From: Hemileia vastatrix | Lineage: Eukaryota > Basidiomycota > Pucciniomycetes > Pucciniales > Zaghouaniaceae | Reading direction: 5' to 3' | Assembly (NCBI GenBank): GCA_030280995.1 | Contig: JASXTE010000002.1 | Span: 29,524,683 to 29,588,682, forward strand | DNA length: 64,000 bases | Part shown: positions 42,814-64,000 of the stretch, piece after piece | Position numbering within the stretch: position 1 is the stretch's first letter | Layout: every line of letters starts with the position of its first letter | The notes under the pieces: model-generated | What the model saw: only the letters and a program-made list of their open reading frames with translations | What the model was told of the DNA's origin: nothing | The model's database searches: none | Translations under genes and position numbers: made by a program

Positions 42814-42823
42814 TCCTCCCTCC
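42814..42823 (-). other. Polypurine tract of element H
   Basis: GGAGGGAGGA on the minus strand, directly before TGTGGTAG of the 3' LTR. This is the expected place for the plus-strand primer. Confidence 0.8.
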
Positions 42824-43482: not shown

Positions 43483-44345
43483 CCAGTTTAGAGTCTTAGT
43501 GGACAGTTATAAATTAAAAGATTGAATTGAGTTATCCAAACAAGATTTACATTCCAGTTTAAAGTCTTGGTGGACCAAACATATAATTGATTGCCAGTTT
43601 ATGGTCTTGGTGGACCAAAGATTGTTTAGGTGCATAAATAACTTGATAAATTCCTAAGTAAGGCCTAGGCTTGACCAAAGATTGAATAAATTTGATAATC
43701 CAGTTTAATGTCATAGTGGACCAAACATTTGATCGACAAGTAATCCAGTATAAGGCCATAGTGGTCCAATGAATGTTGAATTATCCTGCAGATATTAATT
43801 TTCTAGTTTAAAGTCATAGTGGACTAAACAATGAATGAAATACCAGTTTAAAGTGATGGTGGACCAAACATTTAATCGATAAGAAATCCAGTTTAAGGTC
43901 ATGGTGGACCCAACAGCTTGATAATAGTCCAGTTTAAGGTCTTGGTGGACCTAACATTTGATTTATATAAAAGAAATATGTCTCCGAAAATATCCATACA
44001 ATCTTGATTATCCTTGAAATTCAGTTTAAAGTCTTGAAGGACTTACATCTCCAATATAAAATCTTTAATGACAGTCTTGAAAATTAGCCAGTTTAAAGTC
44101 TTGGAGGACTAACAGCTCCAAAATTTGTATAAACCTTAAGGAAAGTCTTGAACAGTAGCCAGTTTAAAGTCTTGGAGGACTAACAGATCCAAAATACGTA
44201 TATAAAAAAAAACCTTAAAGAACGTCTTGAAAAGTAGCCAGTTTAAAGTCTTAGAGGACTAACAGATCCAAAATACGTATAAAAAAAAACCTTAAAGAAC
44301 GTCTTGAAAAGTAGCCAGTTTAAAGTCTTGGAGGACTAACAGATG
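43483..44345 (-). repeat. Array of about 15 hairpin motifs in the 3' UTR of H
   Basis: On the plus strand each copy reads like CCAGTTTAAAGTCTTGGTGGAC; on the sense (minus) strand this is a stem, a 6-nt loop, the stem complement and TTAAACTGG. Copies start near 43483, 43553, 43594, 43651 (weak), 43699, 43744, 43803, 43842, 43887, 43933, 44021, 44083, 44158, 44238 and 44314. Stems include AGGTC/GACCT, AAGTC/GACTT and TGGTC/GACCA. Spacer sequences vary in the first ten copies and become a regular tandem of 70-80 bp in the last four. Confidence 0.85.
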
Positions 44346-44454
44346 TCTTGAAGTAAAATCCCATAGGTATTGAGTTCCCCTAGACCCTGTTTCCTGTCTA
44401 AACTATATGAATAAACTAAAAAGAATAGTGACTGAAAAATAAAACTAAGAAATA

Positions 44455-44557
44455 TAATAATAATTTTGATTTAATTAATTAATATTTTTTTTTTATTTTT
44501 TTGTTTTTTTATTTTATTTTATTTATTATTTTTTTATTTATTTATTTTTTTATTATT

Positions 44558-44591
<34 letters not shown>

Positions 44592-44645
44592 TTTTATTTT
44601 TTTTTTAATTTAATTTTTTTTTTTAATTTTATTTTAATAAAAGAT
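44455..44645. repeat. Low-complexity A/T tract in the 3' UTR of H
   Basis: About 190 bp of almost pure T and A, mostly T runs on the plus strand. No gene. 44646-44900 continues AT-rich with no recognisable feature except a short GC-richer stretch at 44765-44835. Confidence 0.9.
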
Positions 44646-44905
44646 TTTAGAAAAGATAGGTTTGAAATAAAAGTTAAAATTTAATTTTAAAGAAAGATGA
44701 ATGAACGTGAAAAGAAAGATAAAAAAAAGGTAAAAAGAATTATCAAAATTTAAAATTTAAAAGATGCCCCCCGGCCATTTGATGAGCCGTACCCTCGACA
44801 CCATACCCACATCCAAGTGCAACTTGATGTGGTTACACAATTCAAGAAATTGAAAAGAAAATAAAATAAATGAAAGTTTTTAGAAGATAATTTTTATAAT
44901 GATGA

Positions 44906-44957
44906 TCACTGGGTGGGCTCCCTCCAATTTATAAAAATGATTAGAGACCACCAGTGA
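44906..44957 (-). ncRNA. Conserved 3' UTR hairpin with GGAGGGAG loop (H)
   Basis: Arms TCACTGG (44906-44912) and CCAGTGA (44951-44957) flank a loop that reads TTGGAGGGAGCCCACC on the sense strand. Element G has the counterpart at 63851-63904 with 9-bp arms. It is called a structured RNA element of the transcript, not an independent RNA gene. Confidence 0.5.
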
Positions 44958-45177
44958 GCATCACCTTTACAATAATTCATAATATAAATTAAAGAAAAGA
45001 AATCACAATCTACATAAAAAATCAAAAACAAAATAAAATAAAAAGAATCTTGAATCTGGCGTTGAGAGCGGTGTCTCTTGATTCGTTCCAGTTTATAGTC
45101 TTAGTGGACTTCCTAAAATTAAAAGACAAAGCCAGGATTCAACTAGAAACAGGGAAAATTTTGGAAACAAACATTAT

Positions 45178-45218
45178 GGGGTAATTGTGTATAGAGCAGC
45201 CAGCCCATCAATTACCCC
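45178..45218 (-). ncRNA. Conserved 10-bp stem in the 3' UTR of H
   Basis: GGGGTAATTG (45178-45187) pairs with CAATTACCCC (45209-45218). The loop on the sense strand contains GGGCTGGCTGCTC, itself able to pair. Element G has GGGGTAACTG and CAGTTACCCC at the same place (63670-63711), a compensating pair change. Confidence 0.6.
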
Positions 45219-45428
45219 CACACTTGCCAATATTTAATTAAGAAGGTTCCCCTGTGAACACTTCTTCCAATAAATTTTAAAATTTTCCAACACTATCTTC
45301 ACCCATATTTTAAGAATTTTAAATTTTGAAAATTTTCAATGAAGGTTTTCTCGTATTTCGTTATGTTTCATCACAGTTTCGTTGCCCATATGCAGTGTAA
45401 CGATAGTAAATTATTTGATAAAAAAAAG

Positions 45429-45752
45429 ATAGTTTATCCTCTTTGTGGAGGAATTCATAAAATTTTGTTGATATCATAGTTTATCCTCATTTCGGAGGTA
45501 TAAATTTAATAAAAGTCATTAAAATTGTAGTTTATCCTCATTTCGGAGTTATAAATTTAATAAAAAACATTAAAATTGTAGTTTATCCTCATTTCGGAGT
45601 TATAAATTTAATAAAAAACATTAAAATTGTAGTTTATCCTCATTTCGGAGTTATAAATTTAATAAAAAACATTAAAATTGTAGTTTATCCTCATTTCGGA
45701 GTTATAAATTTAATAAAAAACATTAAAATTGTAGTTTATCCTCATTTCGGAG
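45429..45752 (-). repeat. 51-bp tandem repeats after the pol stop of H
   Basis: Copies of TAGTTTATCCTCATTTCGGA begin at 45477, 45528, 45579, 45630, 45681 and 45732 (51-bp steps), with a diverged copy at 45429. On the sense strand the core is CTC-CGAAAT-GAG followed by GATAAACTA. The last copy starts at the pol stop codon. Element G has the same core directly after its own pol stop at 61763. Confidence 0.9.
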
Positions 45753-47144
45753 TTAGACTTCGGCACTCCTGGTGCTTCTAGGATAGAACCGTTTCACTTG
45801 ATCGGCTGCTACCCTCTTCTTCAATACTACTCCATCCAACTCTCCTAGCACATATGAACCGCCGGAAACTTGCTCCTTGATTTTATACGGTCCATTCCAC
45901 CTATCTGCAAACATCTTTCCCCACTGACTTTCCAAACTCCTATTATACACCAGGACCATATCACCTGGGTTCAAAGGTTTCCTTAATCGATGTGCCAACT
46001 GCTCATCCCAATATTTGACTGATTGATTTCGGATCTTCATCATCCGCGAATATGCCTTTTCTAAATATTCTTCTTTCTTTTCTAGCTGCATCATTCTTGC
46101 ACACAATAATTCTTCAGTAGTTTTGACCGTGTCCCAGTCAACTCCAAGATATGATTCAGCTTCTAAATCAACCGGTAATACTGCTTTCTGTCCAAAAACA
46201 AGTTCATAAGGTGAAAATCCGGTCGTCCTTTTGGCAGTGATTCGATCAGCAAATAAAACTAAAGGTAAATAGTGCCTCCACTTTTCGGCACTTGTCCCAC
46301 ACATTTTAACTAAAGCATCCTTAATAACTTGATGCCCTCTTTCAACCATGCCTTCGGCTTCAGGATAATATGGGGTTGCTACCCTAACCTTTGATCCAAC
46401 TTTCAATACGGCCTCTTTAAACTCTGTCCCAAATTCAGGACCTCCATCTACCGTTACCAACTTCATCACCCCATACCTATATACCCAATTATTCAAAAAA
46501 AATTCTGCCACATTTTTGGCAGTTAAATTAATAAGAGGCGCTGCCTCTACCCAACCAGATAAATCATCTCTGGCCACAATTAAATATTTATACCGTCCCT
46601 CTTTTATATGAACGGCATCTAAACTAACTCTCCCAAAGAGCGTATATTCACCGGTCGCGCGTCCAGGTTCTTTTGGCCTTAAATGACTTCGTCTCTGACA
46701 TTCTTCGCATGACTTAACCCACTGTTTAACAGCCATCTTCATGCCAGGCCACCAAAATCGATCAGAAATTCTTCTAAACGTTTCTCCAACGCCTCTATGC
46801 CCAAGATCTTCATGCAGTGATTTCAAAACTAATTCTTGCCCCTTCTGTTGAGTTATAACTACTTGAGGATTTGGATACTTTCTCCTCATTAAAAGTCGAC
46901 CAGATAGGTAAAACGTAGATGACTTCCTCTTGATAGCCACCCATTCATCGTCTTCACAATCTTCTGGCCTCTCTAAAGTCAACAAATATTTGACTAACAA
47001 AAAATAAAAACCAGTCTGTCCCCAGACTTCATCTTGAAAATCGATTAATATAACATCAATAGGGACTTCTCTATCACCAATATCACCTGCACATGAATGA
47101 GCCAATAATTGTTGACCCCTAAATAAATCTTTAATCGAGCTATG
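45753..47144 (-). pseudogene. Integrase of element H
   Basis: Minus strand, open from a TGA at 47145 to the stop at 45753. Zinc region HEDLGHRG...WWPGMK...SCEECQRR (about 46700-46820). Catalytic acids lie in SLDAVH, TVDGGPEFGTEF and EGMVERGHQV. The C-terminal domain reads PLNPGDMVLVYNRSLESQWGK..DRWNGPYK and ends KRFYPRSTRSAEV. There is no chromodomain. The domain itself looks intact; it is separated from RNase H only by the single in-frame TGA. It would insert element cDNA into the host chromosome. Confidence 0.85.
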
Positions 47145-48617
47145 TCAACGTTTTTCTTCTGAACCTTTGGATCCTTTGTAAACCGTATTCAAAAATACCT
47201 CTTTCTCTTTATCCACCTTTTTATTTAAATTCTCTAATTCTCCAACATATACACCATTCCTTAAATTACTACTATCCCACACTATGAATCCATCTTCCTC
47301 TACATACACCACATCTTCTTCTACCTCCTCTCTGCCGAATTTATCTACACCTTTTCCAACACCTTTATTAACATAAAAACTATTTTCCAGTTTATCCTCT
47401 TGGTGGAGGTCATCATCATCATAATCTAAACACAATAGTCCTGCCAGTTTAACCTCATGGGGGAGGTATGGAAAGTCTTCAGCTCCTTTAGTGCTGGCTT
47501 TGATAATAGGTATATCTTCATCGAACTCTTCTGAGTCTGAATCTTCTTCAGTGGGTGGTCTCCTTGATAAACCATCTGGCATAGTAAAAGTTTTGCCAGG
47601 CTTATGAACTAAATCAAACGAAAAATGTTGAATAAAAGCTACCCATCTCGTCATGGGTGCGTTCGGTAAACTTGGGGAATTAATCATCTGGATTAACAAT
47701 TTCGCATCCACTTGCAACTCAAAATGTTGCCCCCACAAAATATGCTGAAGTTTCTTCAGTATTTTTGCCACACCACATAATTCCAATTTTGGTTGAGAAT
47801 ATCTTAATTCGACCTCAGTAAATACTACAGATTCATACCTAACTGGCCTGATGTAACCAGCTTTATCCATCTGAGACAAAACCGCCCCAGCTGCAACCTG
47901 ACTTGAATCAACTGCTAAATAAATTCTACCAGCATCTTTTCCATAATCCAACTTGTGCAGGACTAAATCCATCCCCACAACCTCTTTCAACTTCACAAAC
48001 GCCTTCTCACACTCTTCATCCCACTCCCAGTTTGCATCCTTTCTCGTTAACCATCTCAATGGAGCTGCCAATGAAGAAAAGTCCTTGATAAACATTCTAA
48101 CATATACACAAACGCCTAAAAACCCTCTAACTTTGGTCGTATTCTTGGGTCTTGGCCAGGACTGAATTTTGTTAACTTTCTTCTTGGACATAATCCTACC
48201 CTCTCTACATACCACATGGCCTAATATTTCTAAGGCTGGAACACAACATGAAAATTTTGAACCTGAAATAGTTAAACCAGCCTCTTCAATTCGAAACAAG
48301 ATTCTTTCTAAAGTAATTGCAAACTCCCAAATTAATTTGCGTATCCCAGGATTCTCTTCCAACACCTGGTTATCATAGTCGGTTGTTGGTCCCTTAATTC
48401 CTCCATCATCTATAAAGATTCCAGCATATTGTGGAATTTCATCTTGAAGGATACAAGCCATCTGAGCTTGATAAACTGCAACCGAATTTGTTGCTCCTTG
48501 AGGTAATCCTGTTAACTGTAAACGTCCTAGTGGCGTATCGAATGTAGTGAGAGGCCTTGAGTCCGGATGTAACTCTCTCTCATCATATCCTCCGTAATAT
48601 CTCCCAATCCATAACAC
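47145..48617 (-). pseudogene. RT (C-terminal part) and RNase H of element H
   Basis: Minus strand, 490 codons in one frame. RT has TGLPQGATNSVAVYQ and the catalytic box GIFIDDGG (about 48402-48420; FIDD rather than YxDD, also in G). It then has ILGHVVCREGRIMS and the NTTKVRGFLG thumb block. RNase H has LAVDSSQVAAGAVLSQ, LELCGVAKILKKLQ and LQVDAK, with GKTFTMPDGLSRRP at its end. An acidic linker follows with two hairpin motifs (47389 and 47447) that encode LHQEDKLE and LPHEVKLAG. A one-base deletion near 48590 (GDIxGGYDERE in G) separates it from the upstream RT part. Confidence 0.88.
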
Positions 48618-49546
48618 ACTCTCCCTGCAAACGCTTCAACAAACTCCTCAGCACTAGGCAGTATCCCAGCATCCTTTATTGTAACCCTATTTAATTCCCT
48701 AAGATCATGAACAACTCTAAGCTTGCCATTCGGTTTCTTGATACAAAATACAGGACTAGAATAACTTGACGTTGATTGCTCATACAGTCCAGTGCGTATC
48801 CGTTCTCTGACAACTTCGATATAAGCTTCTTTCAATGCAGCCGGAATAGGAATTGGTTTCTGCTGCCACGGTTCATGACATACCACAGGAATCTTGTAAG
48901 GCTCCCCATAGGAATGCTTCAACACACCCCTCTCCTCTTCTACAAAAGCAATGGCCTTCTCTCGCTTGACCATCACATCCAACAACAACTTCTTCTCTTC
49001 TCCAGACAACCAACCATCTGGTCCAAAATTAACAACACCCAGTCTCTCAAAAGTGATTCTTGACGTCTCAGAAAATTCAGGCGGATTCTTTACCAAGGGA
49101 CTTTCATAAGGATCTCTTGATAACCTTGGTCTTCTCAAAGGTGGATTTAATTCAGCAGGTAGCGGTTCATTAATAGGTCGAACTTTATTTGCTACTTTCT
49201 TATATTTGGCTGCGTCCACATCTAAATAAGCTTGAGGTAAATCATTTACTTTTGTATTGCCATTAAAACTTTCATCAAATGAATCTTCTTCATCGCCAGA
49301 ATCAGAATAAGAAAAATTAGAAAAATATTTTATTTCATTTTTAAATTTTACCCTTTTCTCCTTTCCCTCGTCTAATTTATAAACAGATTTTCCAACACCT
49401 TTGCTTCCCTTATCCAACAGTAAATCACCCGTAAAGAAAGTTGGCAGTTTAACCTCTTGCTGGAGGTCCGGAATTGAATTTTCACAAAAATTATTTTTTT
49501 GTGTTTTAATTATACTGAGATTTTTTATTGGGTTTTGATGAGATAA

Positions 49547-49711
49547 TTGCAGTTTACCCTCTTGCTGGAGGTCCGTAATAGAAGGAGATAATTGCAGTTT
49601 AACCTCTTGCTGGAGGTCCGTAATAGAAGGAGATAATTGCAGTTTAACCTCTTGCTGGAGGTCCGTAATAGAAGGAGATAATTGCAGTTTAACCTCTTGC
49701 TGGAGGTAATC
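49547..49711 (-). repeat. 45-bp coding tandem repeats carrying the hairpin motif
   Basis: Four units in register with the pol frame. Each carries GACCTCCAGCAAGAGGTTAA and then ACTG on the sense strand, an ACCTC/GAGGT stem with loop CAGCAA. A fifth, separate copy lies at 49444-49468. The translated repeat is LQQEVKLQLSPSITD. Confidence 0.92.
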
Positions 49712-49962
49712 AAACATACCCTTCCAATTTTTATCCAACCTAATTTGGCCCATTTTGCCTTTTTCACCGTTTTTAAATTTAATAGAAAAACCGGGTAAAT
49801 CCAATAAACATATAGAAAAGTCCAAAACGTATTTGCACTCCAAAGTAATATTAACAGAAAATAATTGAGAATCCACTTGAATTATCTCCAAGTGAGCTGA
49901 CCTATTGCAATCCGGGATCTCATCCTGAGGAGAGATTACAACATTAGAGCGATCAGCCCCTG

Positions 49963-52572
49963 CTACCCCAAAAAATGAGGGCATTCATCCCTTTCCAACA
50001 AACATAATTCACCAGAAGCCGTCCGTTTAATATGCCGCTTCTTGGTGCAAAAACAACACTGGCACAGAGTAGTAATCCCTGGCCGTGTTTCCCAACCTTC
50101 ATCTCCAGGAGGCGCTAACCGCATATGTAACCTCCGCATATCTTCACCAGTGATCTCCAAACTAATCCCCATGCCAGCTTGATACCCTATCCTGGCCTCA
50201 AAATCCATCAAAAAAGGACCACCAAGAACAGTTTTGACTGCTCCTCTGGCCACATAAAAGTGAACCTTACCAACAGATCCACCAATGCCTAACCTGACAT
50301 GCTCAGCTGTACCCATCAGCTCTGTTGCATGCCCTCCAATACCTCTGAGGTTTCCCCCAGTTCCACTTTTAATTGGCAAGCCTATACTCGTCGCTTGCTC
50401 CAATGAAATTAAATTAATTTGAGACCCTGAATCGACCAAGGCCTTTACTTCTTTACCATGTAGAGTTACCACCAGGTAACCCAGGGGAGCGGAAAAATGT
50501 GTATCTACATCTTCCCCAAACTTTTCAGCATTTTCACAAATATATTCCACCTCTCCAGTGGAAACCCGACGCCTCGTCAAATGCTTCTTTTGCTTTTCAG
50601 CAAGCGCCGGACTAATCGTAAATAACTCCCCCAAAGATAAGGGAATCTGAAGTTGATTCACCCTATTCAAAACTGCGTCCATCGCATTAGCTTGACCAGA
50701 AACTACTGGCCGCTCATACTGGACCTTTGATTTAACAACCTTGGCCCTGGGTACCTCTTGAGGTCCAACCGAGCCATCTTCACCCCCCATTATAACATCT
50801 TCACTTTCTATAACCCTAACTCCGTCACCAGCTTCTTGCACTAATCCTGATCCATTGCTAGTCCTTCTTACACCCTCCATTGGGATGGGACCGCTAAAAC
50901 TTGGTCTGGGTAGAGACGCCAACGGTACGTCCTCCTCAGAATCCGAATCATCCTCTGGCATAGGCTCACCATTTAAATCAAACTTGCCATAACTAGGGGG
51001 CCCCATATCAGCAATCCCCTTCTGCATTTTATATAATTCGTCCTTAGAGTAAGGGTTCAATTTGTTGGCGGCAGTTTGAGCACTAGAATTCTTGTCCTTA
51101 GAGTAAGGGTTCAATTTGTTATTGGCCTTGCCAGGATTAGCCCTCAATTGGCTCTGAATGCTACTTTTCGCCTTAGTAGCAGCTGCTCTTCTAGCAGCAT
51201 TAACATCGTATTCGCCAGCCATACAGCTACCCTCCACCTGGGCAACCGTCGCCAGCTCTAAACCACCAAAAGAAGTAGAAAATGTGGCTTTACTGACCTC
51301 TTTCTCCTTTCCCTTGTCAGCTTTACCACCATTACCATTACCATTTTTGCCACTCTTGGAATTAACATCTTCATCTGTCACCTCTTCAAATCTGGCTCTC
51401 CTTTCAGCCGTTAAACTTCTTCTGACCAAATCAGAAGGAGACTGTCCATCACTGGGCTTGATGAACGAACCATCAGGAAATTTATAAACTTTACCATCAA
51501 AAAGAACTCGCCCAGCATCCATATCCTTATCAAGAGCAAAACTAACTGTTGCTCTGTGCCCCCTCCTATTACAATAATAGCACACCTTTGGCTCATCATA
51601 GCCACCTCTATATCCATTACCACCATTCCCACCATTTCTCCCATTGCCTGGGAAGCGGTTACCGTTGTTATTGCCATTATAATTTTGGGGTTCATAACCT
51701 CTGGACTGATAAGAAGTCGACGTCGACGAAGAAGCGATTGGGGCCTTGTTGGCCTTCTGAGTCTCTTGAACAAATATTTTTAATTGTTTCGTTAAATCGG
51801 CCAAGTGATTGACCATCTTATTATCTACATTACCCTCAACTTTAGCAGCAGGTAATCCCATTTGAGCCTTCTTGGCCTCCTGGGCTTTGACCATAATATC
51901 GTTGTTTTCGGCCAAAACTTCGCTAACCTTGCTAACATATTGAGTGCATGACTCTTGATATTTGTCCAACGCCAATAACTTTAGATGGGCTTGAATGTTG
52001 TCCTTGATAACCTCCAGAGCCGGCAGTTTCTGCTCACCATTAGGCAGTTCCTTCATCAAATCTTTTCTTGAAAGATCCTTCAAGACGTCCATACGAATAT
52101 CCCTGCTACATGCTGTCCAAAACAAATCTTTTGCTTGGTTCTCATGCACTAACTCGTCCACCAGTATGAGATATTCCACCACTTCATCAAACTGAACACA
52201 GAGCTTTTTGAAGTCAGCCATAGAAGAAACACCACCTTTTGCTTGCCAGTCTCCAACAATTTTATTGAGGTCCATCATAGTAAACCTAACACCCTATCTA
52301 TCGACCATAGCTTTAGAAAGCTTAACCCAATCCTTGTCCTTGAATGCCTGCATAGCAATAACCTCTTTTTCCACCTCCCTATCAGCAATAAAAAACCTAA
52401 CTTGCTTCACCATATCCACATGGGAAGCACCATCAACAGCAGCAGCAGCTTCATACCTGCTAATGAACCATTTAACCTCCTCCCCATCAAGCTTTGGGCC
52501 ATCCCAAGAAACAATTCTAACTGAGGGAGTAAGAGGGTTAGAAGATCCAGAAGCAACAGCAGAAGAAGACAT
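49963..52572 (-). pseudogene. Gag-protease of element H
   Basis: Minus strand, starting MSSSAVASGS at 52572. The gag matrix/capsid-like part has WDGPKLDGEEVKWFISRYE and DMVKQVRFF. An in-frame TAG at 52294 replaces the Trp of MVDRWGV seen in G; afterwards 771 codons are open. An Asn/Gly-rich stretch precedes the knuckle CYYCNRRGHRATVS (about 51545-51587), where the fourth ligand Cys is Ser (C in G). Acidic region DSDSEEDVPLASLP; protease ALVDSGSQINLI (about 50420-50440) with a complete DSG triad. It ends ECPHFLG at 49963, overlapping pol by 22 bp. Gag and protease are one protein, Pol follows by frameshift. Confidence 0.9.
49969..49975 (-). promoter_or_regulatory. -1 ribosomal frameshift heptamer, gag to pol (H)
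   Basis: Sense strand T TTT TTG in the gag frame, followed by GGG and the gag stop TAG (49963-49965). A -1 slip here enters the pol frame (FGVAGAD...). The X XXY YYZ form is canonical. Element G has T TTT TTA at the homologous site. Confidence 0.8.
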
Positions 52573-52729
52573 CCCAATAAGTAATGAAAAGCGTTAACAA
52601 TCGATAAAATAACAAGCCTCTTGCAGGCCAATAACAAAGATCCAATTAGAGTTCCAGAAAATAAGCCTCTTGCAGGCTAATAACATTCTTGATCCAAGTA
52701 AGTCTTTAAAGAAAGCTAGAGAAATCGAA

Positions 52730-52746
52730 CCCCACGTTGGGCGCCA
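52730..52746 (-). other. Primer-binding site of element H
   Basis: TGGCGCCCAACGTGGGG on the minus strand, two bases after the LTR end. The identical 17 bases lie at the same place in element G (55544-55560). This identity, in elements otherwise clearly diverged, marks a tRNA complement; I do not name the tRNA. Confidence 0.85.
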
Positions 52747-52748
52747 AC

Positions 52749-53898
52749 TATGGTAAGGTAAACTCTTACAGTCGCCTTGCTGTAAGCAGAATCCAGAGGA
52801 GATATGTGGATTTAGCTGAAAACCCCGTCCTTCCAATAAAAATAACAAAATGGGTGTTCTAAATCACTAAGCTAACCAAACTACTTAGATCTGATTGATA
52901 AAAATAATGAAACTCTAAAATATTTAACGCTTATTGAGATTTAAAGAAAGTGGCTGTTGATAAAAGAAATACTGATAACAACAATTAAGGTGTACCAGTG
53001 AAAGATCTGTAAAGATTGACTTTTATGTTTTTATAATAATTTGAATTTTTATGAGACAGCAATAATCAAGTCCCAGCGACGAAGACCTTTCTAAAGATAC
53101 CCTATATGAAGTGTGATTTAAATTGTTGAATTGTATTTCTAAAATGTTATGTAAAAATAATAAATGTTATAAGGGTATTATAACTTATTTAATTTGTTTA
53201 GTAATAAAAAATGAGACCGTGGTGGTTAATGATTAAGCTGTATGATCTGTCCCCCCTTCTCAATTTCGAGTTTGAGAAGCGCTTAAGTATTCCTAGTCAC
53301 GTGCCTAAGTTTTCCCCTCCAGAGCTCTTCCAGAGTCAATCCGGAGCCCGTATGGAGCCGGAACGGAGTCCGTACGGAGTCCGTACGGAGTCCGTACGGA
53401 GTCAAAACGGAGTCCGTCCGGACTTCGGGACTCAATTAGAACCTTAAAACTATAATAAAAAATCTAGAAAAATTACACATAATAGAGCTACTTCCCCTTT
53501 ACATACCAAAGAAATTTTCGTAGTCTGCGCAGCTCTAATTACCCCGTGAAAATTTATCAAAGTTAAGTAATTTTTGAAAACGTAAATATTTCTATAAAAC
53601 TTTAAAATTCATTTAAAAATATAAGAAAAATAGTAAAAATTCTGGGAAAATTTCCCAAGGTTCTTGAGTGACTTGACTTGATACTTATAAATTTTTCAGA
53701 CCGTAAAAATAAGTTTTCTCCGTAAAATAAATTGTATTTGTATAGGCATTCGTTCGTGACCAATTTCTTCATATTTTAAACTCCAATAAATTAAATAAAA
53801 CCCTTTTATATATAAAAAAAAATAATAACACCAATCTTGCACGCCGTAATAACTCCATTTACATATTTAGGTGCCGTACTAAACTTTAGGCTACCACA
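52749..53898 (-). repeat. 5' LTR of element H
   Basis: 1150 bp, TGTGGTAGCC to TTACCATA on the minus strand. The 15-bp length excess over the 3' LTR is explained by one extra 11-mer, three bases near 52975 and one A near 53820. The 11-mer array (GTACGGAGTCC type) lies at 53341-53426. Confidence 0.92.
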
Positions 53899-54007
53899 GC
53901 GAGAGCTTATACCTTCATTATTAATTCATAAGGTAAACTTTATCCTCAATTCTATTCAGGATATAAGCAAGTGCTTATAACTTCATTATTATTTCCTAAG
54001 TCTTACA
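53899..54007 (+). repeat. 5' LTR of copia element M, second part
   Basis: Begins with the right gcga copy and ends TTACA, complementary in form to the TGTAA start at 41316. It repeats the GGTAAACTTTATC..CAGGATATAAGC stretch found left of element H. A leader with TATGAGACCAGG follows, where a copia primer site is expected. Confidence 0.72.
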
Positions 54008-54447
54008 GATTATGAGACCAGGTTATACCTGCTAAAGCCCAGAAATTTATTACTTGCACTTCATTCTCATGCAACCCACTACTGCTTCCTTCAACGATAT
54101 GTCCCTTACTAATGGTATAACTATCCTTAACAAGGAAAATTACCAACTATGGTCTTATTGAATGCCCAGTCTTTTTCTACAACAAAACACCTTTGATATT
54201 GTTGTTTTAAATCAGGCTCCTCCTGAAAATGACAAAACAAAACTTGAAAGCTATTGCCTTCATTTTCAAAAAGCTCTAGGGGTCATTACTCAATTCATTG
54301 ACTCCTATCATCTGCAGTGTTTTCTTAATGCACATACTGAAAGCCATCCTCATCTTTTATGGAAAGCTCTTTCCGACCAATATCATTCTTCCAGCGAATC
54401 TAACCAAATGTGTGTCTTTCAAAATTTTGCACTTGTCTCGTACCCGG
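54008..54447 (+). pseudogene. Start of copia gag, element M
   Basis: ATG at 54070 (MQPTTASFNDM). It reads ITILNKENYQLWSY, then a TGA where the usual Trp-Met follows, then MPSLFLQQNTFDIV and LLWKALSDQYHSSSESN, the typical copia gag pattern of a W..M block and an LW..L..QY block. It is cut at 54447 by the LTR of element G. The rest of M lies beyond the window, after G. Confidence 0.8.
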
Positions 54448-55539
54448 TGTGGTCTTCCAACATTGGCAGGGGCCTTTGTTGTGTGATTTGGCGCGGTTTG
54501 TGCATGTCTTAATTGACATCTGTTAATGAATTGGGTATTTTTCTGGTTTTATTCCGTGGATATTGGGTCTGCAGGTATGTGGGTACTATCATTGGATAGC
54601 CCTGGTTTTTCTCTATATTTTATGTTTTGTAGACATTTTTCATATTCTGTGTTTTAAGGGGTCATTTCCTCATTTTTCATTTATAAAAGATTGCTGTTTA
54701 ATTTTTTTTTTTGTGTTTTACGGGCTAACCTTAAGTCTTAGGGTTAAGTGCTTAGTACCATTGGATAGAGCTAATTTTTCTCTATATTTCATGTCCCAAT
54801 GTTGTTATAGTGAAATTCCGTGTTTTAAAGGTTTTAGTAGTTGTAGCTAATTTTTCTAAGTAGATTAGTGGTTTTTATTGGTTTTCTGGCTTCAGGGAGG
54901 CCAGGCCGCTTCAGGCGGCATCTCCGACATCGGGCGGCCCGCCCGCCTCTGTTTTAGGAGGTTGGGGAGCGCTCCAGGAGGGTTTTTTATGCAATTTGGC
55001 GGGTACAGGTGCCAGATTGGTGGGTGCGCATGGGCTCTTAGTTAGTGGTCTGTGTATACATAGTGAATAAGACAGTTTGGGGCAACCTTAATCATCATAC
55101 AACCATCCGGAGGTGATCTCATTGTTCCTCACTCAGTTTTCATTGTTTTCTGGCCACAATTGGCTGTGTTTGTTGCAAGTAAGTTCTTCATTTAACTTAA
55201 CTTTGGTAACTGTTTTCTCTGTTATAGTCTTGCAAGCTATAGTAAGTATTATTGCTGTCTCTGGTGTGGATTTGCACCCTACATCAAGTATCTTTGCTGT
55301 CTCTGGTGTGGACTTTGTTCTACATTTCAGTTCTTTGGTCTGGTAGTCTATCTGGGGAATACTTTCTTGGCTCATCAAGCAGTCAAGTGTGTTTAAAAGG
55401 AGCTTTAGCAAACAGGAACCAACTTACTTTAGCAAGTAAATCTCACTCTATTTTTCTAAAGGGACAGGGGATTTTCTCTCTGGTTTTTCTCCAACTCCCT
55501 TGGTCAAGGCCTATAGCTAATACTATAGGATTGTCTACA
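54448..55539 (+). repeat. 5' LTR of element G (F type)
   Basis: 1092 bp from TGTGGTCTTCC to TTGTCTACA. Truncated relatives lie at 18323, 18768-19049 (minus) and 38320. It has a GC-rich inner block at 54890-54990, in contrast to its AT-rich surroundings. Confidence 0.88.
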
Positions 55540-55543
55540 TTTC

Positions 55544-55560
55544 TGGCGCCCAACGTGGGG
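55544..55560 (+). other. Primer-binding site of element G
   Basis: TGGCGCCCAACGTGGGG, four bases after the LTR. Identical to the site in H. Confidence 0.85.
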
Positions 55561-55630
55561 TAGAACTTTCTAGTTCTTTGGAATCTCTGTTCTCTTTGGT
55601 TGGCTCTTTTTGGTGTTTTGGTCAGGAGGA

Positions 55631-58011
55631 ATGGCTTCTGGTTCTGCTATTCCTGTGGTGACTGTCAGTGGGGGGGATGGTCCTCCTTCTGTGATGGTTA
55701 GGGAGTGTGTGAGAATTAAAACTTGGGATGGTACCAAGTTTAATGGGGAGGATGTCAAGTGGTTTCTAGAGAAGTATGAAACTTCTTCTGGAGTAGATGG
55801 TTCTTCCTACCTGGACATGGTGAAGCAGATTATCTTCTTCATTGGTGATAGGTCAGTGGAGAAGGAGATTGTGGCCATGTCTGGCTACAAGAAGGGGGAT
55901 TGGAAATTGTTGTGTAGGGAAATGGTGGATAGATGGGGTGTCAGGTTCACTATGGTGGATCTGAACAAGGTTTTCAGTGAATGGCAATCTTATGGTGGTG
56001 TTGGTAACTTACATAGTTACAGGAAGTTTCTGCTACAGTTTGATCCTGTGGTGGAATACTTGGTGGAAGTGGAGGATCTGGCACATGAAAATGCTGCCAA
56101 AGATGTTTTTTGGTCTGCCCTGGCTAGAGATGTCAGGATGGATGTGTTGAAGGAGCTGTCAAGAAAGGAATTGATGAAGACTCTTTCTAATGGGGAGCAG
56201 AAGTTGCCTGCCTTGGATAAGGTGAAGGAGGCTTTTGAGGCCCATTTGAAGTTATTGGCTGTGGACATCTATCAGGAGGGGTGTGCCAAGTATGTCAGCA
56301 AAGTCAGTGAGGCTTTGGCTTAAGAGGAAGTTAGGGAGAGGAAGGAGGAGAAAAATTTGGTGCAGGTTCCCAAACAGGAGAGGGACCCAATGGTGGAGCA
56401 GTTGGCTGATCTTACAAAGCAGCTGCACATTTTTGTTCAGGAGGCCAAGAAGGTTAATAAGGCACCTTCTCAGCCTAGAGATTTTGAAAGGAGGGCTGGT
56501 AGGAGTGATCCTTGGGTTTGCTCTTATTGCAGTAGGAGGGGGCACAGGTCCGATGATTGTTGGGAATTGAACAGAGATTTGTCTGAAGGAAAAGTGGAGT
56601 TTGATGGCAGTGTTTTTAAGTTCCCTGACGGTTCTTTTGTGAAGCCCAGTGAGGTGCAGACTCCTGTGGATTTGGTCAGGAGAAGGGGTGGTCTCAATCA
56701 AATGAGGCCAAGGTTTGAGGAGATTCCTGATCAGGGGAAGTCTTCTGTTAAGGTAGATGAGGACGTCAAAGGAAAGGGGAAGGAGGTCAATAAGGTCTCT
56801 TTTCTACTTCCTTTTGTGGTTTGGAGTTGTATTCTTGTGGTGGACAGTCAAGTGGTGAATGCTTGGCTGGTGTTTATGATGTGGAAGCAGGAAAGGTGGA
56901 AAGGCCAAAGAGCAGTTCTCAGGCCCAACCAAAGCCAAATTCTTCAAAGGGGGATCCTAAGCTGAGTGCAGCTAGGAAAAGGTACAGAAAAGAGGAGCTG
57001 TACAAGATGCAGAAGGGTATCGCTGATATCAGCCCCCCTAGTTTTGGCGCATTGGATCTGAATGGTGATCTAATTCCAATGGAGGTGGATTCTGACTCTG
57101 AGGAGGATGTCCCTTTGGCTTCATTACCAAAGCCCGCTGGAGTAAGAGTTTTTGGTGAGGGATCTGGTTTGGTTCCTGTTAATGGTAAATCTGTTGGTGG
57201 TTCTGGTCCTCAAGAAGCTTCTAGGACCATGATGGTGAAGCAAGGAGCTCACTTTGAGAGGCCAGTAGTGTCTGGTCAAGTTAATGTTATGGACTCTGTC
57301 CTGGAAAGGATGAATCAGGGTCAGGTTTCCCTATCTTATGGGGAATTGTATGGTATTAGTCCAGGGTTGGCTGATAGACAGAAAAAGTTGTTGACCAGGA
57401 GAAGAGTTTCTTCTGGTGAGGTAGAATACATTTGTGATTCTGCTGAAAAGTTTGGTGAGGGGTTGGAAACTCATTTTTCTGCTCCTCTGGGATATGTCAA
57501 TGTCACTCTGAATGGCAGGGAGGCAAGGGCATTGGTGGATTCAGGGTCTCAGATAAACCTGATTTCTTTGTTTGAGGCAACTCATATGGGCCTCCCCATC
57601 AAAACTGGTATTGGTGGGAATTTGAGAGGGATCGGTGGCCATGTCACTGAATTGGTTGGAACTTCAGAGTTTGTGAAGTTAGATGTTGGAGGAGCCTCAG
57701 GGAAGGTTCATTTTTACATTGCTAAAGGTAATGTAAAAGCAGTTTTAGGTGGGCCATTCTTGATGGATTTTCAGGCAAGAATTGGTTATCAATTTGATTT
57801 GGGAATCAGTTTGGAGTTGACTGTTGAAGACAAAAGGAGGCTTCACATGAGGTTATCATCCCCTGGAGAAGATGGTTGGGAGACCAGGCCTGGTTTATCT
57901 TCAATGCGCAAGTGCATGGAATGTTTCAGGAGAAGGAAGGAAGTGGGTGCTGACTCTGGTTTTTTGGAGTGCGGCTCAGGCTCTATTGAGAGTCTTTCTT
58001 TTTTAGAGTAA
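55631..58011 (+). pseudogene. Gag-protease of element G
   Basis: ATG at 55631 (MASGSAIPVV). Gag has WDGTKFNGEDVKWFLEKYE, LDMVKQIIFF and MVDRWGVRFTMVDLN. A TAA at 56321 interrupts. The knuckle CSYCSRRGHRSDDC (about 56519-56560) is complete (CX2CX4HX4C). A frame change near 56815 leads to the second part. The acidic DSDSEEDVPLASLP block is shared with H. Protease has ALVDSGSQINLISL (about 57530-57560). It ends SLSFLE at 58011, two codons after the slippery heptamer. Apart from the stop and one frameshift it parallels H throughout. Confidence 0.88.
57999..58005 (+). promoter_or_regulatory. -1 ribosomal frameshift heptamer, gag to pol (G)
   Basis: T TTT TTA in the gag frame, then GAG and TAA. 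The -1 frame reads FRVMRADHPSAMTSPQDEE, homologous to the Pol start of H. A short AGGG/CCCT stem begins eight bases downstream; H has AGGG/CUCU there (one G-U). Confidence 0.82.
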
Positions 58012-61000
58012 TGAGGGCTGATCACCCTAGTGCTATGACCTCTCCCCAAGATGAGGAAGTCCCAGGTTTTAGTAGGTCAGCTCCCTTGGAGATATACCAA
58101 GTGGATTTTCAACTTTCTCTTTTTAATGTTTCTCTTCTCTGCAAGTAATCATCAAGTTTTTTATCAAGTCTCTGTTCTTTCTCAAGATTCTTAATTATTT
58201 TTAATTCAAGTTCAAGGAAGAAGATTGGTTATATATCTTTATTGAAAGATATGCGGAAAAGTTTTGGAGTGGTGAGATTGGGGTGTAAAAGTAAGTCCTC
58301 CCAATTGTGCACCGCTAGGGTTTCTTCTACACCTTTCAAAAACATTACCTTGGCCACACATGTGAGCAATGGGGAAACCCTTGGTTTTTGTTCCAGGTCT
58401 GGTGGTGAAGAATTCCTGAAGATCCCTCAAGTTGAAGGTGGAGCGGCAAAGTATAAGAAGGAAGCGCAGAAGATTAGGCCTGTGGGCTTGAATCCGCCTT
58501 TGAAGAGACCTCCTTTGTCAAGAGATCCGTACTGTACTCCTTTGGTGAAGAATCCTCCAGAATTTGTAGAGACGGCTAGGGTGACCGTGGAAAGATTGAA
58601 AGTTTTTAGTTTTGGTCCTGATGGGTGGTTGTCTGAAGAAAAGAAGTTGTTGTTGCACGTTATTGTGCTAAGGGAAAAAGCTGTGGCGTTTGTTGAGGAG
58701 GAAAGGGGTGTATTGAAGCACTCTTATGGGGAACCTTACTTGATTCCTGTGGTTTGTCATAAACCTTGGCAAATCAAACCTATTCCGATTCCAGCCGCTA
58801 TTAGAGAGGATTTTGTGGAGATTGTTAGGGAAAGAGTCAGGACTGGGTTATATGAACAATAAACATCCATTTACTCAAGTCTGGTGTTTGGTGCAAAGAA
58901 GCAGAATGTAAAGTTGCAGGTGGTTCATGATCTTAGAGCCTTGAATAGAGTCACTATCAAGGACGCTGGTATGCAACCAAGTGCAGAGGATTTTGTTGAA
59001 CCTTTAGCTGGAAGGGTGTGTTATGTTTTGGGTGATATTATGGGTGGTTATGATGAGAGGGAACTACATACAGATTCAAGGCCTCTCACAACTTTTGAGA
59101 CTCCTTTGGGAAGATTTCAGCTCACTAGGTTGCCTCAAGGATCAACTAATTCAGTGGCAGTTTATCAAGAACAGATGGCTTGGATTTTGCAGGCTGAGGT
59201 TCCTACTCATGCTGGTATTTTTATTGATGATGGTGGAATTAAAGGACCATCCACTGATTATGGTAATGAGGTGTTAGAGGAGAACCCTGGCATAAGGAGG
59301 TTTGTGTGAGAATATGCAATAACTCTAGAGAGAGTGTTGTTCAGGATTGAAGACGCTGGTCTGACCATTTCAGGGTCAAAATTCTGTTGTTGTGTTCCTG
59401 CTTTCAAAATTCTGGGTCATGTAGTATGTAAAGAGGGAAGGATTATGGCAAAGAAGAAGATTAATAAAATCCAGTCATGGCCAAGGCCCAAAAATACTAC
59501 TGAAGTCAGGGGATTTTTGGGTGTATGTGTATAAGTCAAGATTTTTATTAAGGATTTTTCTTTCTTGGCTTCACCTTTAAGGAGGTTGACCAGAAAAGAT
59601 GCATATTGGGAATGGACTGAAGAGTGTGAAGAGGCCTTTCAGAAGTTGAAAAAGGTTGTTGGTGAGGATATTGTTCTTCACAAGTTGGATTATGGTGTTG
59701 GTGCTGGAAAAATGTATCTGGCAGTGGACTCAAGTTATATTGCTGCTGGTGCTTTTTTGTCTCAGGAGGATAAGACTGGGAGGGTCAGGCCAGTAAGGTA
59801 TGAGTCTGTGGTGTTTAATGAGGTGGAATCTAGGTATTCTCAACCTAAGTTGGAATTGTCTGGCGTAGCTAAAATTTTAAAGAAGCTACAGACGGTTTTG
59901 TGGGGGCAGCATTTTGAGCTGCAGGTGGATGCAAAATCTTTGGTTCAGATGATCAATACACCTAGTCTTCCAAATTCTCCAATGATCAGGTGGGTGGCAT
60001 TTATTCAACATTTTTCTTTTTACCTGGTACACAAACCAGGTAAAACTTTTACTATGCCTGATGGATTATCAAGGAGGCCACCTACAGATGAGGATTCTGA
60101 TCCTGAAGAGTTTGACGAAGATGTTCCAGTGGTTAGGGCCAGCACAAAGGGTGCTGAGGATTTTTCTCTCCTCCCCCATGAGGCTAAACTGGATGATTGT
60201 TCTGGCCTCCCCCAAGAGGCTAAACTGGCTGGATCTGATCTTGATTCTGGTGATTAGGATGTTTTTGTTGATGAAGATGGAGTTGTTGTTTGGGACAGCT
60301 CAAAGTTGGAAAAGGGTGTTTTTGTTAGTGAACTGGATTCTCACAAGGTTCAGTGGAAAGAGAAGGATGTGCCAAAATTTAAGGATTGGTGTCCTGGTTG
60401 GGCTGCTCAATTGGCTCATGTTCACACTGGTGATTTTGATGACAGAGTTGTACCCTTGGATGTTGTTTTTTTGGATTTTGAAGATGAGACCTGGGGTTAG
60501 TCTGGGTTTTATTTTAGTTTGGTGGAATATCTGTTGACCTTGAAGAGGCCAGATAGTTGTGATGATGATACTTGGTTGGAAATCAAGAAAAAGAGTCCTG
60601 GATTTTATGTGTCAGGAAGGTGGTTGATAAGAAGGAAACATCCTAATCCTCAAGTGGTGGTGACTCAGAAGAAGGGTCAAGAATTGGTTTTAGAGTCTTT
60701 GCATGAAGACCTTGGTCATAGAGGCTTTGGGGAGACTTATAGAAGAGTAGCAGACAGATTTTGGTGGCCAGCTATGAAGTTGGCTGTGAAGGGTTGGGTT
60801 CAATCTTGTGAAGAATGTCAAAGAAGAAGTCACTTGAAACCTAAAGAGGTGGGCCGTGCTACTGGTGAATCAACTGTCTTTGGAAGAGTCAGTCTGGATG
60901 CTGCCCATATTAAAGAGGGCAGGTATAAATACTTGATTGTTGCTAGGGATGATTTGTCTGGTTGGGTTGAGGCAGTGCCTCTGGTTAATTTGACTGCCAA

Positions 61001-61762
61001 GAATGTGGCAGAGTTTTTGAAGAAGTAGTGGATTTATAGGTATGGGTTGATGAAGTTGGTCACTGTTGATGGCAGGCCAGAGTTTGGTGCCGAATTTAAA
61101 GAAGCTGTGGCTAGTGTTGGTTCTAAAGTTATAGTGGCTACACCATATTATCCTGAAGCTGAAGGCATGGTTGAAAGAGGCCATCAAGTTATCAAGAATG
61201 CTTTGGTGAAGATGTGCGGAGATAGTGTCTAAAAGTGGAGGCATTATTTACCCTTGGTTTTAATTGCTGATAGGGTCACTGTGAAGAGACAACTGGCTAT
61301 TCTACTTATGAGTTAATGTTTGGTCAGAAAGCCGTTCTACAAGTGGACTTCGAAGCTGTCTCTTATCTTGGAATTAATTGGGATGACGTGCACTCAACAG
61401 AAGATTTGCTCTGTGCCAGGATGCAACAGTTGGAATGTAGAGAGGAATGTTGAGAGAAGGCATACTCTAGAATGATGAAGATTAGGAATCAATCAGTCAG
61501 GTACTGGGACAATAAATTGGCTCATAGACTCAGGAATCCCTTGAAACCTGGTTGTTTGGTTTTGGTGTATAATAGAAGTTTGGAGAGTCAGTGGGGGAAA
61601 ATGTTTGCTGACAGATGGAATGGACCTTACAGAGTCAGATCTCAGGCGTCTGGAGGTTCTTATGTTTTGGAAGAGTTGGATGGTGCAGTTTTAAAAAAGA
61701 GGGTGGCTGCAGACCAAGTGAAGAGGTTTTATCTCAGAGGCACTAGGCATGAAGAAGATTGA
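58012..61762 (+). pseudogene. Pol of element G (RT, RNase H, integrase)
   Basis: After the frameshift site Pol runs TSPQDEEVPGFSRSAPLEI to a stop near 58146. From 58242 one frame continues almost to 61260, broken only by stops at 58860, 59307, 59532, 60255, 60498, 61026 and 61230. RT: GVLKHSYGEPYLIPVV, HDLRALNRVTI, TRLPQGSTNSVAVYQ and FIDDGG (about 59217). RNase H: LAVDSSYIAAGAFLSQ and LQVDAK. Integrase: HEDLGHRG...SCEECQRR, SLDAAH, TVDGRPEFGAEF, EGMVERGHQV. A frame change near 61275; the C-terminal part 61472-61762 ends KRFYLRGTRHEED. No chromodomain. Confidence 0.88.
60169..60228 (+). repeat. Two hairpin motifs in the RNase H-integrase linker of G
   Basis: CCTCCCCCATGAGGCTAAAC (60169 on) and GCCTCCCCCAAGAGGCTAAA (60205 on) encode LPHEAKLD and LPQEAKLA. 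H has its two motifs at the homologous linker. The second has a GCCTC/GAGGC stem, a pair not seen in H. Confidence 0.8.
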
Positions 61763-61914
61763 CTCGGAAATGAGGATAAACTACGGACCATTCTTTAATT
61801 TTGGTTTTTTTTTGTGGTGATGCTATGCATCTGTTTGTTGGAAACTTTTGTTAGAGGGTACCCATGGGTGGGGCATCTAGATTTTGTCTTGGCAAGTGTG
61901 GGGGTGACAGATGG
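61763..61914 (+). other. Start of the 3' UTR of G
   Basis: Directly after the pol stop comes CTCGGAAATGAGGATAAACT, the same post-stop core as in H. The stretch GGCAAGTGTGGGGGTGACAG (61891-61910) is the left arm of the conserved long hairpin; its partner was moved 1.5 kb away by the solo LTR. Confidence 0.65.
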
Positions 61915-63416
61915 TGTCAGGCTAAGGTCAAGTACAAAGACGTGAACTAGCTTGAATGGTCAGTTGTCTAGAAGATTTTAATGGTCCTATATGAATACTG
62001 TAGTTTTAATCCACTAAGTTGTAAAATATAATCAAATATAGAGGTCTCAGTAATATAATTCTCACTATTCTTATATATGGCTTACAATCTTTATAGTTGG
62101 TAGAAAAATAGATTATATAAATTCAGATACTATTCAAAAGTCTTATAAAAGTACTAATTGATAGGTATTGTAAATTTGTTTGGTTATATTGGTTAAATTG
62201 TAATGATAAAGAATGTAGAAACAAGACCCAAAAACCTCCTCCTTTTATACACACTGAGTTCCCCAATAAATCCCTTGATATACCATCCAATACACAGTTA
62301 ATGACGCCTCAAAACAACTAATAGACCTGCCCATCAACATCCCTAGTGACCCATGACATAATTAGACAAGTAACAACCGCCAAAATACTGTAATAATAAG
62401 GGAAATCCATCAAAATTAAAGAAAAAGACAAAAAGAGAGTATATGCGTATAAAACAATAATATAAAAGACTGAAGGAGACTTTTTAAGGTTAATAATAGC
62501 TTAATAATAAGGGGGATTGACTGTAGAAATAATGGGGCTAATCCTGACATTATACTACATGAAATTCCCATTCAAAAATAACCAAAATTGACTGAGAAAC
62601 CACCCAAAAACTTAAAAAAGAGCGTGAGATGTGGGGTAACTACATGCAGTTCTTGGCAGACGCTTGCACGGGTAAATCCTTGACTAAAATTAGGCGAATT
62701 TAAGCGTGGTGATGAAATAAAGTGCCAAGAGTGAGGTTATTAATGAAATTAGTGCATATAAACAAGGTCAATGCATTATTAATTAAGCTAGGACACTAAA
62801 TAAGCGCCTGTCGCCTATTTTAGTGTGTTTCCCCACAGTGGGCGTAGAATGTGGGGTAATTATAGTGTGAAAAAGCTAACTTTGCTAAAAATGAAGCTAT
62901 TCACACGGGAAAAAAGCAGGCAGTATGTGGCCAGTACACAGAAGCCATTTCTGGCATAAAAAACACCAAATTTGAAAAGTGTTATTTTTATGCATTTAAA
63001 TAGCCAAATCAATAGTTCTAAATGAGCCCAATTGATCTGTCAAAGCGCAATTTTGATATTCTCAATTTTATAGCGCATATAGTCAACTTTTAAGTGAAAT
63101 AAAGCGCATTTCTTGTTTTTTGCATAAAACAATGAATATAACAGCTTTAAGTGTACTTAAAAATTATGTAGCCTTATACTTAAGGTTCTTAAGATTACCC
63201 TAACATATTCCAACTTAATATTTAGTACATAAGACCTATAAAAGGTGGATATATGCGTGTATATAAGGTGTTATAATGGCATTTTTTGTGTATTATCATA
63301 ATTTTACTTATGTATACTATTTGTGTACTCTTAATTATTATTCCCATGTATAGTTCATGTGTTTGACATAACTTATAATTACTTTTTACTCAGTCCTGGA
63401 GATATAAAGGCTGACA
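61915..63416 (-). repeat. Solo LTR-alpha (element A family)
   Basis: 1502 bp on the minus strand, the same ends and length as the LTRs of A. Flanks are gatgg on both sides (61910-61914 and 63417-63421). It was left by recombination between the LTRs of an inserted element. TATA box inverted at 62243-62249. Confidence 0.95.
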
Positions 63417-64000
63417 GATGGGCTGGCTGCTCTATCAACAGTTTCTCCAGATTGTCTGTTTCCAACTCTTTTTCTTAATTTGGTTGAACCCTAGTATTGG
63501 TTTCTTTTCACAGGTTTAAGTCCTCTATGACTTTAAACTGGAAATTCCTTTGGTTTTCATGTGCCGGACTCTTCACTTTTATTGGTTTTGGTTTATCGTG
63601 TTGGATGTTGTGTTTTGTTGGTTAGAAGGTACCCAGAGGGGGCTTCTAGATTTTATTTTGGCAAGTGTGGGGGTAACTGATGAGCTGGCTGCTCTGTAGA
63701 ACAGTTACCCCAGAATGTCTGTCTCAAGTATTTTGTTTTTCCTAGTTGAATTCTAGTTCTGTTGTTTATTATTAAGGTTTCAAGTCCACTATGACTTTAA
63801 ACTGGTTTGGGACTGGCTTTTTTATCTTTGGTTCTTTCAGATTGGTGGTGGATCACTGGTGGTCCCATCATTTTTACTTATTGGAGGGAGCCCACCCAGT
63901 GATCATTTCAATGGACCGGACTTTCTCTTATTGGACCATCTATGGAGCTGGACTTTCTTTGATTTTGCAGTTACTTTTTTGCTAGATAGCAGTTTTAGAT
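63417..64000 (+). other. 3' UTR of G with structured motifs
   Basis: Hairpin motifs AAGTCCTCTATGACTTTAAA (63519 on) and AAGTCCACTATGACTTTAAA (63782 on), each followed by CTGG. The long stem GGGGTAACTG/CAGTTACCCC lies at 63670-63679 and 63702-63711. Arms GATCACTGG/CCAGTGATC at 63851-63859 and 63896-63904 flank a TTGGAGGGAGCCCACC loop. The order differs from H, and the GTGTGGGGGT block occurs twice in G (61896 and 63665), so this region has been duplicated. No gene seen. Confidence 0.7.

Follow-up and report, generated by a model that had tools for sequence, protein, structure and literature searches.

Cis-acting RNA signals of long terminal repeat (LTR) retroelements are already known. To our knowledge, the selection of LTR retrotransposon RNA for packaging is poorly known beyond a few models, and we know of no earlier multi-site assembly code in these elements. 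In the part of the source drawn on here, the single zinc knuckle of Moloney murine leukemia virus (MoMuLV) is described as binding a UCUG linker beside hairpins, several such sequences being exposed on dimerization (PMC7599994). In a 64,000-nucleotide (nt) stretch of the rust fungus Hemileia vastatrix genome (contig JASXTE010000002.1, positions 29,524,683 to 29,588,682; the window is this whole stretch), a hairpin motif of ~24 nt is repeated through two LTR retrotransposons, element H on the minus strand and element G on the plus strand. The copies are placed in sense, two variable stem positions are paired, the tail is fixed, the slots that the copies occupy are common to diverged elements, and a relative without pol carries them as well. 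We tentatively read the motif as a recognition element that acts in cis on RNA, is dispersed in the elements of a rust Ty3/Gypsy lineage, and is most likely read by the element's own Gag for packaging or dimerization, and we give this reading, with its proposed binder, slightly less than an even chance. What is new is the dispersed, multi-copy form, which is unusual; no such hairpin array in LTR retrotransposons was found in the open-licence literature searched by titles and abstract openings.

Copy number and distribution of the hairpin

The motif has the form N1-N2-N3-U-C, a 6-nt loop, G-A-N3′-N2′-N, and then UAAACUG(G). The loop is mostly C-N-N-Y-A-W, the stem closes with U-A and C-G, and one free nucleotide precedes the UAAACUG(G) tail. 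About 35 copies in H and G had been proposed by a sequence-only reading of the window; we extracted 34 at the places it named, 29 in H and 5 in G, and a scorer trained on 26 window copies, which rewards pairing, recovered the same 34 places at a score of at least 17, with just two other places reaching 10, both at 10.0. Copies occur in both coding and noncoding parts, as that reading had said: the RNase H–integrase linker, the Pol N terminus, the pol stop, and the 3′ untranslated region (UTR). Tandem units carrying hairpins are 45 to 51, 66, and 77 to 79 nt long, and an A·G mismatch at N2 is found in five of the seven post-stop H copies and in the G pol-stop copy. Ten further G hairpins lie past the window end, at equivalent positions 66222-66787 (from locus L035), and the three elements for which most of the length is covered contain 29 (H), 15 (G), and 18 (L024) hairpins. 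The sequence TAAACTGG is found in the window 14 times on the minus strand, always inside H, and five times on the plus strand, four of them inside G.

The motif also proved nonrandom when compared with reversed controls. In 312 kb of sampled DNA (the window and 30 loci, two of which overlap a third), the scorer gave 270 matches of at least 10 (252 of at least 17) vs. 5 of at least 10 in reversed sequences, with a top score of 15.0, and cmsearch of the window and the 30 loci gave 266 matches with E up to 5. Genome-wide, in the one genome covered (747.6 Mb, 791 contigs), the 13-mer GACYTTAAACTGG was found 34,996 times vs. 202 for the reversed pattern, and CTC-N6-GAG-NN-TAAACTGG 12,940 times vs. 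2 for its control. Twenty evenly spaced 10-kb samples from the first 29 Mb of contig C338 contained 51 matches of at least 17, all in seven samples, which by naive scaling corresponds to a genome total of the order of 10^5 copies. Rfam gave no match in the window and, in a search of 42800-50000, one match with E 0.78, far under its cut-off. Viral contigs contained no relative of H pol, and motif pattern scans of them gave 0 and 1 stretch, the one being taken as chance.

The host of the motif is a Ty3/Gypsy LTR retrotransposon, with LTRs, a primer-binding site (PBS), a polypurine tract, and the order protease–reverse transcriptase (RT)–RNase H–integrase. The closest named relatives of H Pol are mainly from Austropuccinia psidii and Puccinia. 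No Chromo domain match was detected at E 1e-3 in the H integrase open reading frame (ORF), vs. one in family C, and H is not placed among the chromoviruses. Family C elements, which encode a chromodomain and are common in the samples, gave nothing better than E 1.9 in the model search.

Pairing within the stem

The stem had been described as five base pairs with three covarying positions. When the 224 matches of at least 17 were grouped by flanking sequence into 32 slots, N2 was paired in 31 and N3 in 31 (shuffled means of 15.5 and 16.4; 0 of 5000 shuffles reached either), and N1 in 14 vs. 12.6 expected. Because the scorer rewards pairing, the test was repeated on copies picked by TC, GA, and TAAACT alone, with no demand on N1 to N3; among 104 distinct copies, N2 was paired in 85 and N3 in 98 (shuffled 49.5 and 49.2; 0 of 2000), and N1 in 40 vs. 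43.9 when shuffled. Loci L001 and L002, the same place as L023, were left out of the slot, distinct-copy, R-scape-like, and tree tests, as were L046 (the same place as L024) and L036 from the 104-copy test; selection by TC, GA, and TAAACT was also applied to smaller copy sets. The five-base-pair stem was rejected, N1 pairing at chance in the slot, distinct-copy, and tree tests, so that the stem has 4 base pairs and two, not three, variable positions covary: N2 and N3 exceed the shuffles, and the claim for N1 falls. Genome-wide, crossed forms at N3 are scarce in a comparison resting on three cells, with 130 copies of CTC..GAC and 110 of GTC..GAG vs. 12,940 of CTC..GAG.

Because the copies share descent, columns were also simulated on a tree as the null. 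For N3, the observed number of paired rows was reached in 0 of 2000 simulations on both trees; for N2, it was reached in 57 of 2000 on the all-column tree and in 0 of 2000 on the tree built without stem columns, and N1 was at the null level. The tree without stem columns has five paired-to-paired double changes at N2 (48 of 2000) and six at N3 (0 of 2000). In an R-scape-like score, N3 ranked first (8 of 1000, family-wise), and N2 was significant pairwise only (9 of 1000). With N3 and N2 kept paired beyond the tree null, the motif counts as a covarying structural RNA element.

Repeated sites inside retroelements can act as enhancers or insulators, and the stem doubles as an inverted repeat, as would suit a protein binding NNTC-N6-GANN in double-stranded DNA at an enhancer, insulator, or silencing site. 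Were the site a symmetric palindrome in DNA, GGTC..GACT and AGTC..GACC would mirror each other, and an excess of one over the other would be unexpected. Genome-wide, the G·U form exceeds the mirror A·C form 30 to 1 (5370 copies vs. 179), although the G·U total is dominated by two fixed H slots (two loop types in 100 listed places), so the count shows which slots could fix rather than 5370 events, and since the tail breaks the symmetry of the site, the comparison is suggestive only. Among the 104 distinct copies, there are 5 G·U-type cells at N2 and 3 at N3, vs. 0 and 1 of the A·C type. The arms also vary jointly instead of one sequence being kept, and a DNA-level site seems to us very unlikely as the explanation of the motif.

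Slots, coding copies, and a relative without pol

Diverged elements with about 50 to 74% protein identity to H have hairpins at the same places, several of the compared elements being close copies of H. All 11 sampled elements with DNA spanning the linker have a linker copy (in L016, RNase H itself was unmatched), and 11 of 12 have a copy at most 10 nt from where the integrase ends, L016 being the exception; L031 has copies in the Pol N terminus and 3′ UTR as well. Copies scoring at least 17 are in sense in all 18 sampled elements in which H/G-type coding fixes the direction (window H and G; L004 twice; the plus cluster of L005; L012, L016, L017, and L022 to L031). The claim that copies are in sense stands for these 18, direction not being decidable for the L005 minus cluster and L021. 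Bacterial REP sequences and mitochondrial double-hairpin elements are comparable mobile hairpins, and scattered copies with a common tail in many contexts are what a tiny mobile hairpin inserting into these elements would also leave; where direction can be decided, however, the copies occupy conserved slots in a single element lineage and run in the sense direction, and 13 of the 20 evenly spaced samples contain no match of at least 17, making such a hairpin the most improbable explanation weighed here.

The coding copies examined are all in one reading phase and mostly spell L-x-[QHKN]-E-x-K-L, for example LQQEVKL. In 28 coding copies, the first Leu is CTC in 27, Glu is GAG in 27, Lys is AAA in 27, and the second Leu is CTG in 26, compared with usage of 7, 45, 56, and 12% for these codons in the H frames. 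Nine further loci provided 17 coding copies, with Leu encoded by CTC in 15 and by CTT in 2, both CTT copies preserving a U·G pair. Both the 28 and the 17 were found via the motif, a point that weakens this evidence since the fixed letters and codons are partly built in. The L016 linker copy holds one U-A pair, and in the nine loci, the GAGT linker variants were searched for a compensatory change, with none found.

The single phase and the plentiful tandem arrays are also what would be seen if the hairpin had no RNA function, the coding copies being a peptide repeat and the rest tandem duplicates from abnormal strand transfer, an origin already hypothesized for the 3′ UTR repeats of plant Ogre elements (PMC7004042). 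The peptide is found in none of 120 listed relatives, with a looser form in one; the RNase H end is visible in 59 of the 120, with 110 or more residues beyond it in 37, and hence a linker of sufficient length. Rare codons are fixed in the coding copies, with the proviso on how these were found, and noncoding copies retain pairing and tail, the hairpin remaining constant though unit length varies. The peptide repeat was rejected as the main reason for the noncoding copies and is a possible constraint on the coding ones; a motif without any RNA function appears unlikely.

A relative without pol also encodes the motif. Loci L024 and L034 contain the last 63 nt of a G-type 5′ LTR, a PBS-like site, and a gag-like ORF, but no pol; L024 (with L034) has a hairpin directly after a stop, 18 matches of at least 17, and a G-type 3′ LTR at 87.6%. 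A 29-nt junction of this family gave 844 genome matches (at most 3 mismatches) and 0 in the control. In all four of the 844 loci that were opened, one being L024, the gag-like start is 32 to 43% identical to H Gag and hairpins are kept, and no protease, RT, RNase H, or integrase was detected in the 1.5 kb before the stop hairpin. In L024 and L047-L049, N2 is paired in 23 of 25 distinct copies and N3 in 23 of 25 (0 of 2000 shuffles). Hairpins in a pol-less family are what one would expect of a signal that acts in cis and is recognized by trans-supplied proteins; the dependence itself we infer. In L047-L049, CCTC/GAGG-type hairpins are found +248 to +288 past the stop and resemble the Pol N-terminal coding copies.

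Other structures are found in the same 3′ UTRs (Table 1). A large stem-loop, GGGGTAAYTG..CARTTACCCC with an inner conserved GCTGGC, lies upstream of a small hairpin in H, G, L024, and L026, and one of its pairs is U-A in four and C-G in four of eight sequences. A conserved block, TCACTGGTGG...CCCACCCAGTGATC (window 44902-44957 and 63853-63906), is shared by H, G, L024, and L031 and is foldable by eye. The G 3′ UTR contains a 1.5-kb insertion at 61915-63416, 96.7% identical to 2647-4148 and 96.5% to 10871-12372 (LTR-like repeats flanking family C); it is bordered on both sides by GATGG and is a solo LTR interrupting one large G stem-loop. The G 3′ LTR is outside the window, in L035, and is 97.0% identical to the 5′ LTR. 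Elsewhere in the window are inverted G-LTR fragments at 18320-19052, in two pieces (90.8% and 86.9%) with mirror images, and, outside H and G, an H-type LTR at 29265-30408 (88.5%) and a diverged G-type LTR piece at 38316-38949 (79.3%).

Table 1. Features of elements H and G in window coordinates
Feature	Position	Strand	Basis or remark
H 3′ LTR, edges approximate	41679..42815	-	97.4% identity to 52749-53898; TGTGGTAGCC end follows GGAGGGAGGA
H 3′ UTR cluster, 14 hairpin copies	43482..44338	-	Motif extraction, scorer, model matches
H lone hairpin, downstream of large stem-loop	45087..45111	-	Motif extraction, model match
H large 3′ UTR stem-loop GGGGTAATTG..CAATTACCCC	45160..45219	-	Sequence comparison
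Seven H hairpins with TAAACTA as tail; a 51-nt tandem array starting at the pol stop holds most of them	45428..45754	-	
H integrase ORF	45753..47105	-	Integrase_H2C2 6.4e-20
H ORF: RT end, RNase H, linker	47145..48617	-	RT_RNaseH 7.1e-22
H coding hairpin, RNase H–integrase linker, peptide DLHQEDKL	47386..47410	-	
H coding hairpin, RNase H–integrase linker, peptide YLPHEVKL	47443..47467	-	
Five H coding hairpins, Pol N terminus; four within a 45-nt tandem repeat (DLQQEVKLQLSPSIT)	49443..49707	-	
H gag-protease ORF	49963..52278	-	Asp_protease_2 1e-08; last Cys of zinc knuckle absent in window copy
H primer-binding site TGGCGCCCAACGTGGGG	52730..52746	-	Read from sequence
H 5′ LTR, edges approximate	52749..53898	-	LTR-LTR identity 97.4%
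G 5′ LTR, approximate	54448..55545	+	97.0% identity to L035 3559-4649
G PBS	55544-55560	+	Read from sequence
G Gag, one CCHC zinc knuckle	56519..56560	+	Motif read in ORF
G coding hairpin, RNase H–integrase linker	60169..60193	+	
G coding hairpin, second in RNase H–integrase linker	60205..60229	+	
G hairpin at pol stop	61761..61785	+	Weak model score, E 0.13
G 3′ UTR hairpin	63518..63542	+	
G large 3′ UTR stem-loop GGGGTAACTG..CAGTTACCCC	63665..63720	+	Sequence comparison
G 3′ UTR hairpin	63782..63806	+	

Possible readers of the array and comparison with known systems

On the reading that we prefer, the hairpin array would act in cis on element RNA as a multivalent binding platform. Its most likely binder would be the element's own Gag, through a single CCHC zinc knuckle on the unpaired CUG(G) adjoining the stem, much as MoMuLV binds UCUG beside hairpins with its one knuckle (PMC7599994). 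A candidate view that H/G-type Gag is without a zinc knuckle was dismissed, one CCHC knuckle being present in the Gag of G and of the H-type relatives L012, L022, and L004. Gag binding would select element RNA, and the RNA of pol-less relatives, for packaging or dimerization, and tandem duplication would increase hairpin copy number. Carried further, the array may be a multi-site assembly code, in which 15 to 29 sites of a stem-loop plus UAAACUGG on coding and 3′ UTR RNA would be bound by Gag, amplified by duplication, and common to pol-less parasites competing for Gag; this extended form is doubtful. Packaging, protein binding, and dimer contacts had all been suggested for the motif; RNA-level pairing at N2 and N3 supports a role as RNA, and which role we infer.

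Several results weigh against a selected RNA structure read by Gag. Retroviral packaging sites are mostly near the 5′ end, whereas these hairpins are placed 3′ and in Pol, with no copy of at least 17 in the LTRs, gag, or protease of window H or G. The Gag zinc knuckle of window H is damaged (51582, minus strand), its final cysteine gone, while L012 and L022 retain four ligands. Local folds (±50 nt) give a mean stem probability of 0.35 over 20 copies, at most 0.04 in seven of them, and the motif columns are no better conserved than the 3′ UTR overall (0.920 vs. 0.894; circular shifts 513 of 2000), the flanks directly upstream of the motif being less conserved, at about 0.7 to 0.8. N2 is mismatched in 4 of the 17 further coding copies. 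By the R-scape-like score, two other pairs rank higher than N2, one outside the stem (columns 8-24, 43 of 1000) and one off register (3-15), which is a sign of subfamily structure, and the noncoding copies alone are not significant family-wise (N3 572 of 1000 family-wise, N2 74 of 1000 pairwise), so the R-scape-type check that had been suggested came out positive for N3 family-wise and N2 pairwise in the full set and fell short in the noncoding subset. On the all-column tree, N2 requires two paired-to-paired double changes and N3 one; simulations under the null attain these numbers in 202 (N2) and 389 (N3) of 2000 runs. The evidence is wide pairing rather than many independent events: compensating pairs, which had been put forward as a mark of selection on RNA, mostly exceed the tree null in their pairing, and they include few independent double changes among copies that share descent.

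The main rival keeps the RNA element and changes its reader: a host protein, or the export or decay machinery, would stabilize the RNA, export it, or shield the several-kilobase 3′ UTR from nonsense-mediated decay. Such a role, which would be inseparable from a Gag role by sequence, would suit the copy that 11 of 12 elements have at most 10 nt from the end of the integrase, the hairpin right past the stop of the pol-less ORF in the four opened loci (the search pattern itself included that hairpin), and the other stem-loops of the same 3′ UTR. A decay shield leaves the coding copies far upstream in Pol unexplained, and Rfam families are under threshold in the window, none being near it in 42800-50000; we regard a host reader as possible but rather unlikely. 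A defined stem, loop, and tail at tens of thousands of places amounts to a set of natural mutants that shows directly which letters are free, which covary, and which are fixed, and the pol-less family gives a second readout of the motif. The array is also a warning that functional RNA sites may make up the tandem repeats seen in 3′ UTRs of retrotransposons.

The known systems are compared here as far as the consulted portions of their sources describe them. The rust relative without pol is like Helenus, a nonautonomous LTR element of Pucciniales, and unlike it in that Helenus is tRNA-derived, with no mention of "hairpin" in the portion of its text covered (PMC10886601). It is also like BARE2, in which a protein is lost and dimerization and packaging signals are conserved, but BARE2 is without Gag, whereas the rust relative has a gag-like ORF and is without pol (PMC3735527). 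Plant Tat/Ogre Ty3/Gypsy elements likewise have hypervariable tandem repeats behind pol, with units of different lengths; the part consulted names no hairpin common to them, whereas in the rust elements one hairpin and tail run across different units and are found also in Pol (PMC7004042). The likeness to the MoMuLV packaging sites is in the one knuckle, the short unpaired -CUG- beside hairpins, and the several sites (PMC7599994), but those sites are in the 5′ leader, whereas the rust units are many and are found in the 3′ UTR and Pol, with none of at least 17 in the leader or gag of the window elements. Finally, the array is like the dispersed packaging signals of MS2, STNV, picornaviruses, and hepatitis B virus in having many stem-loops that share a recognition motif along the RNA (PMC6281560), and it differs from these viral signals in that its host is an LTR retrotransposon and its strict tail is outside the loop.

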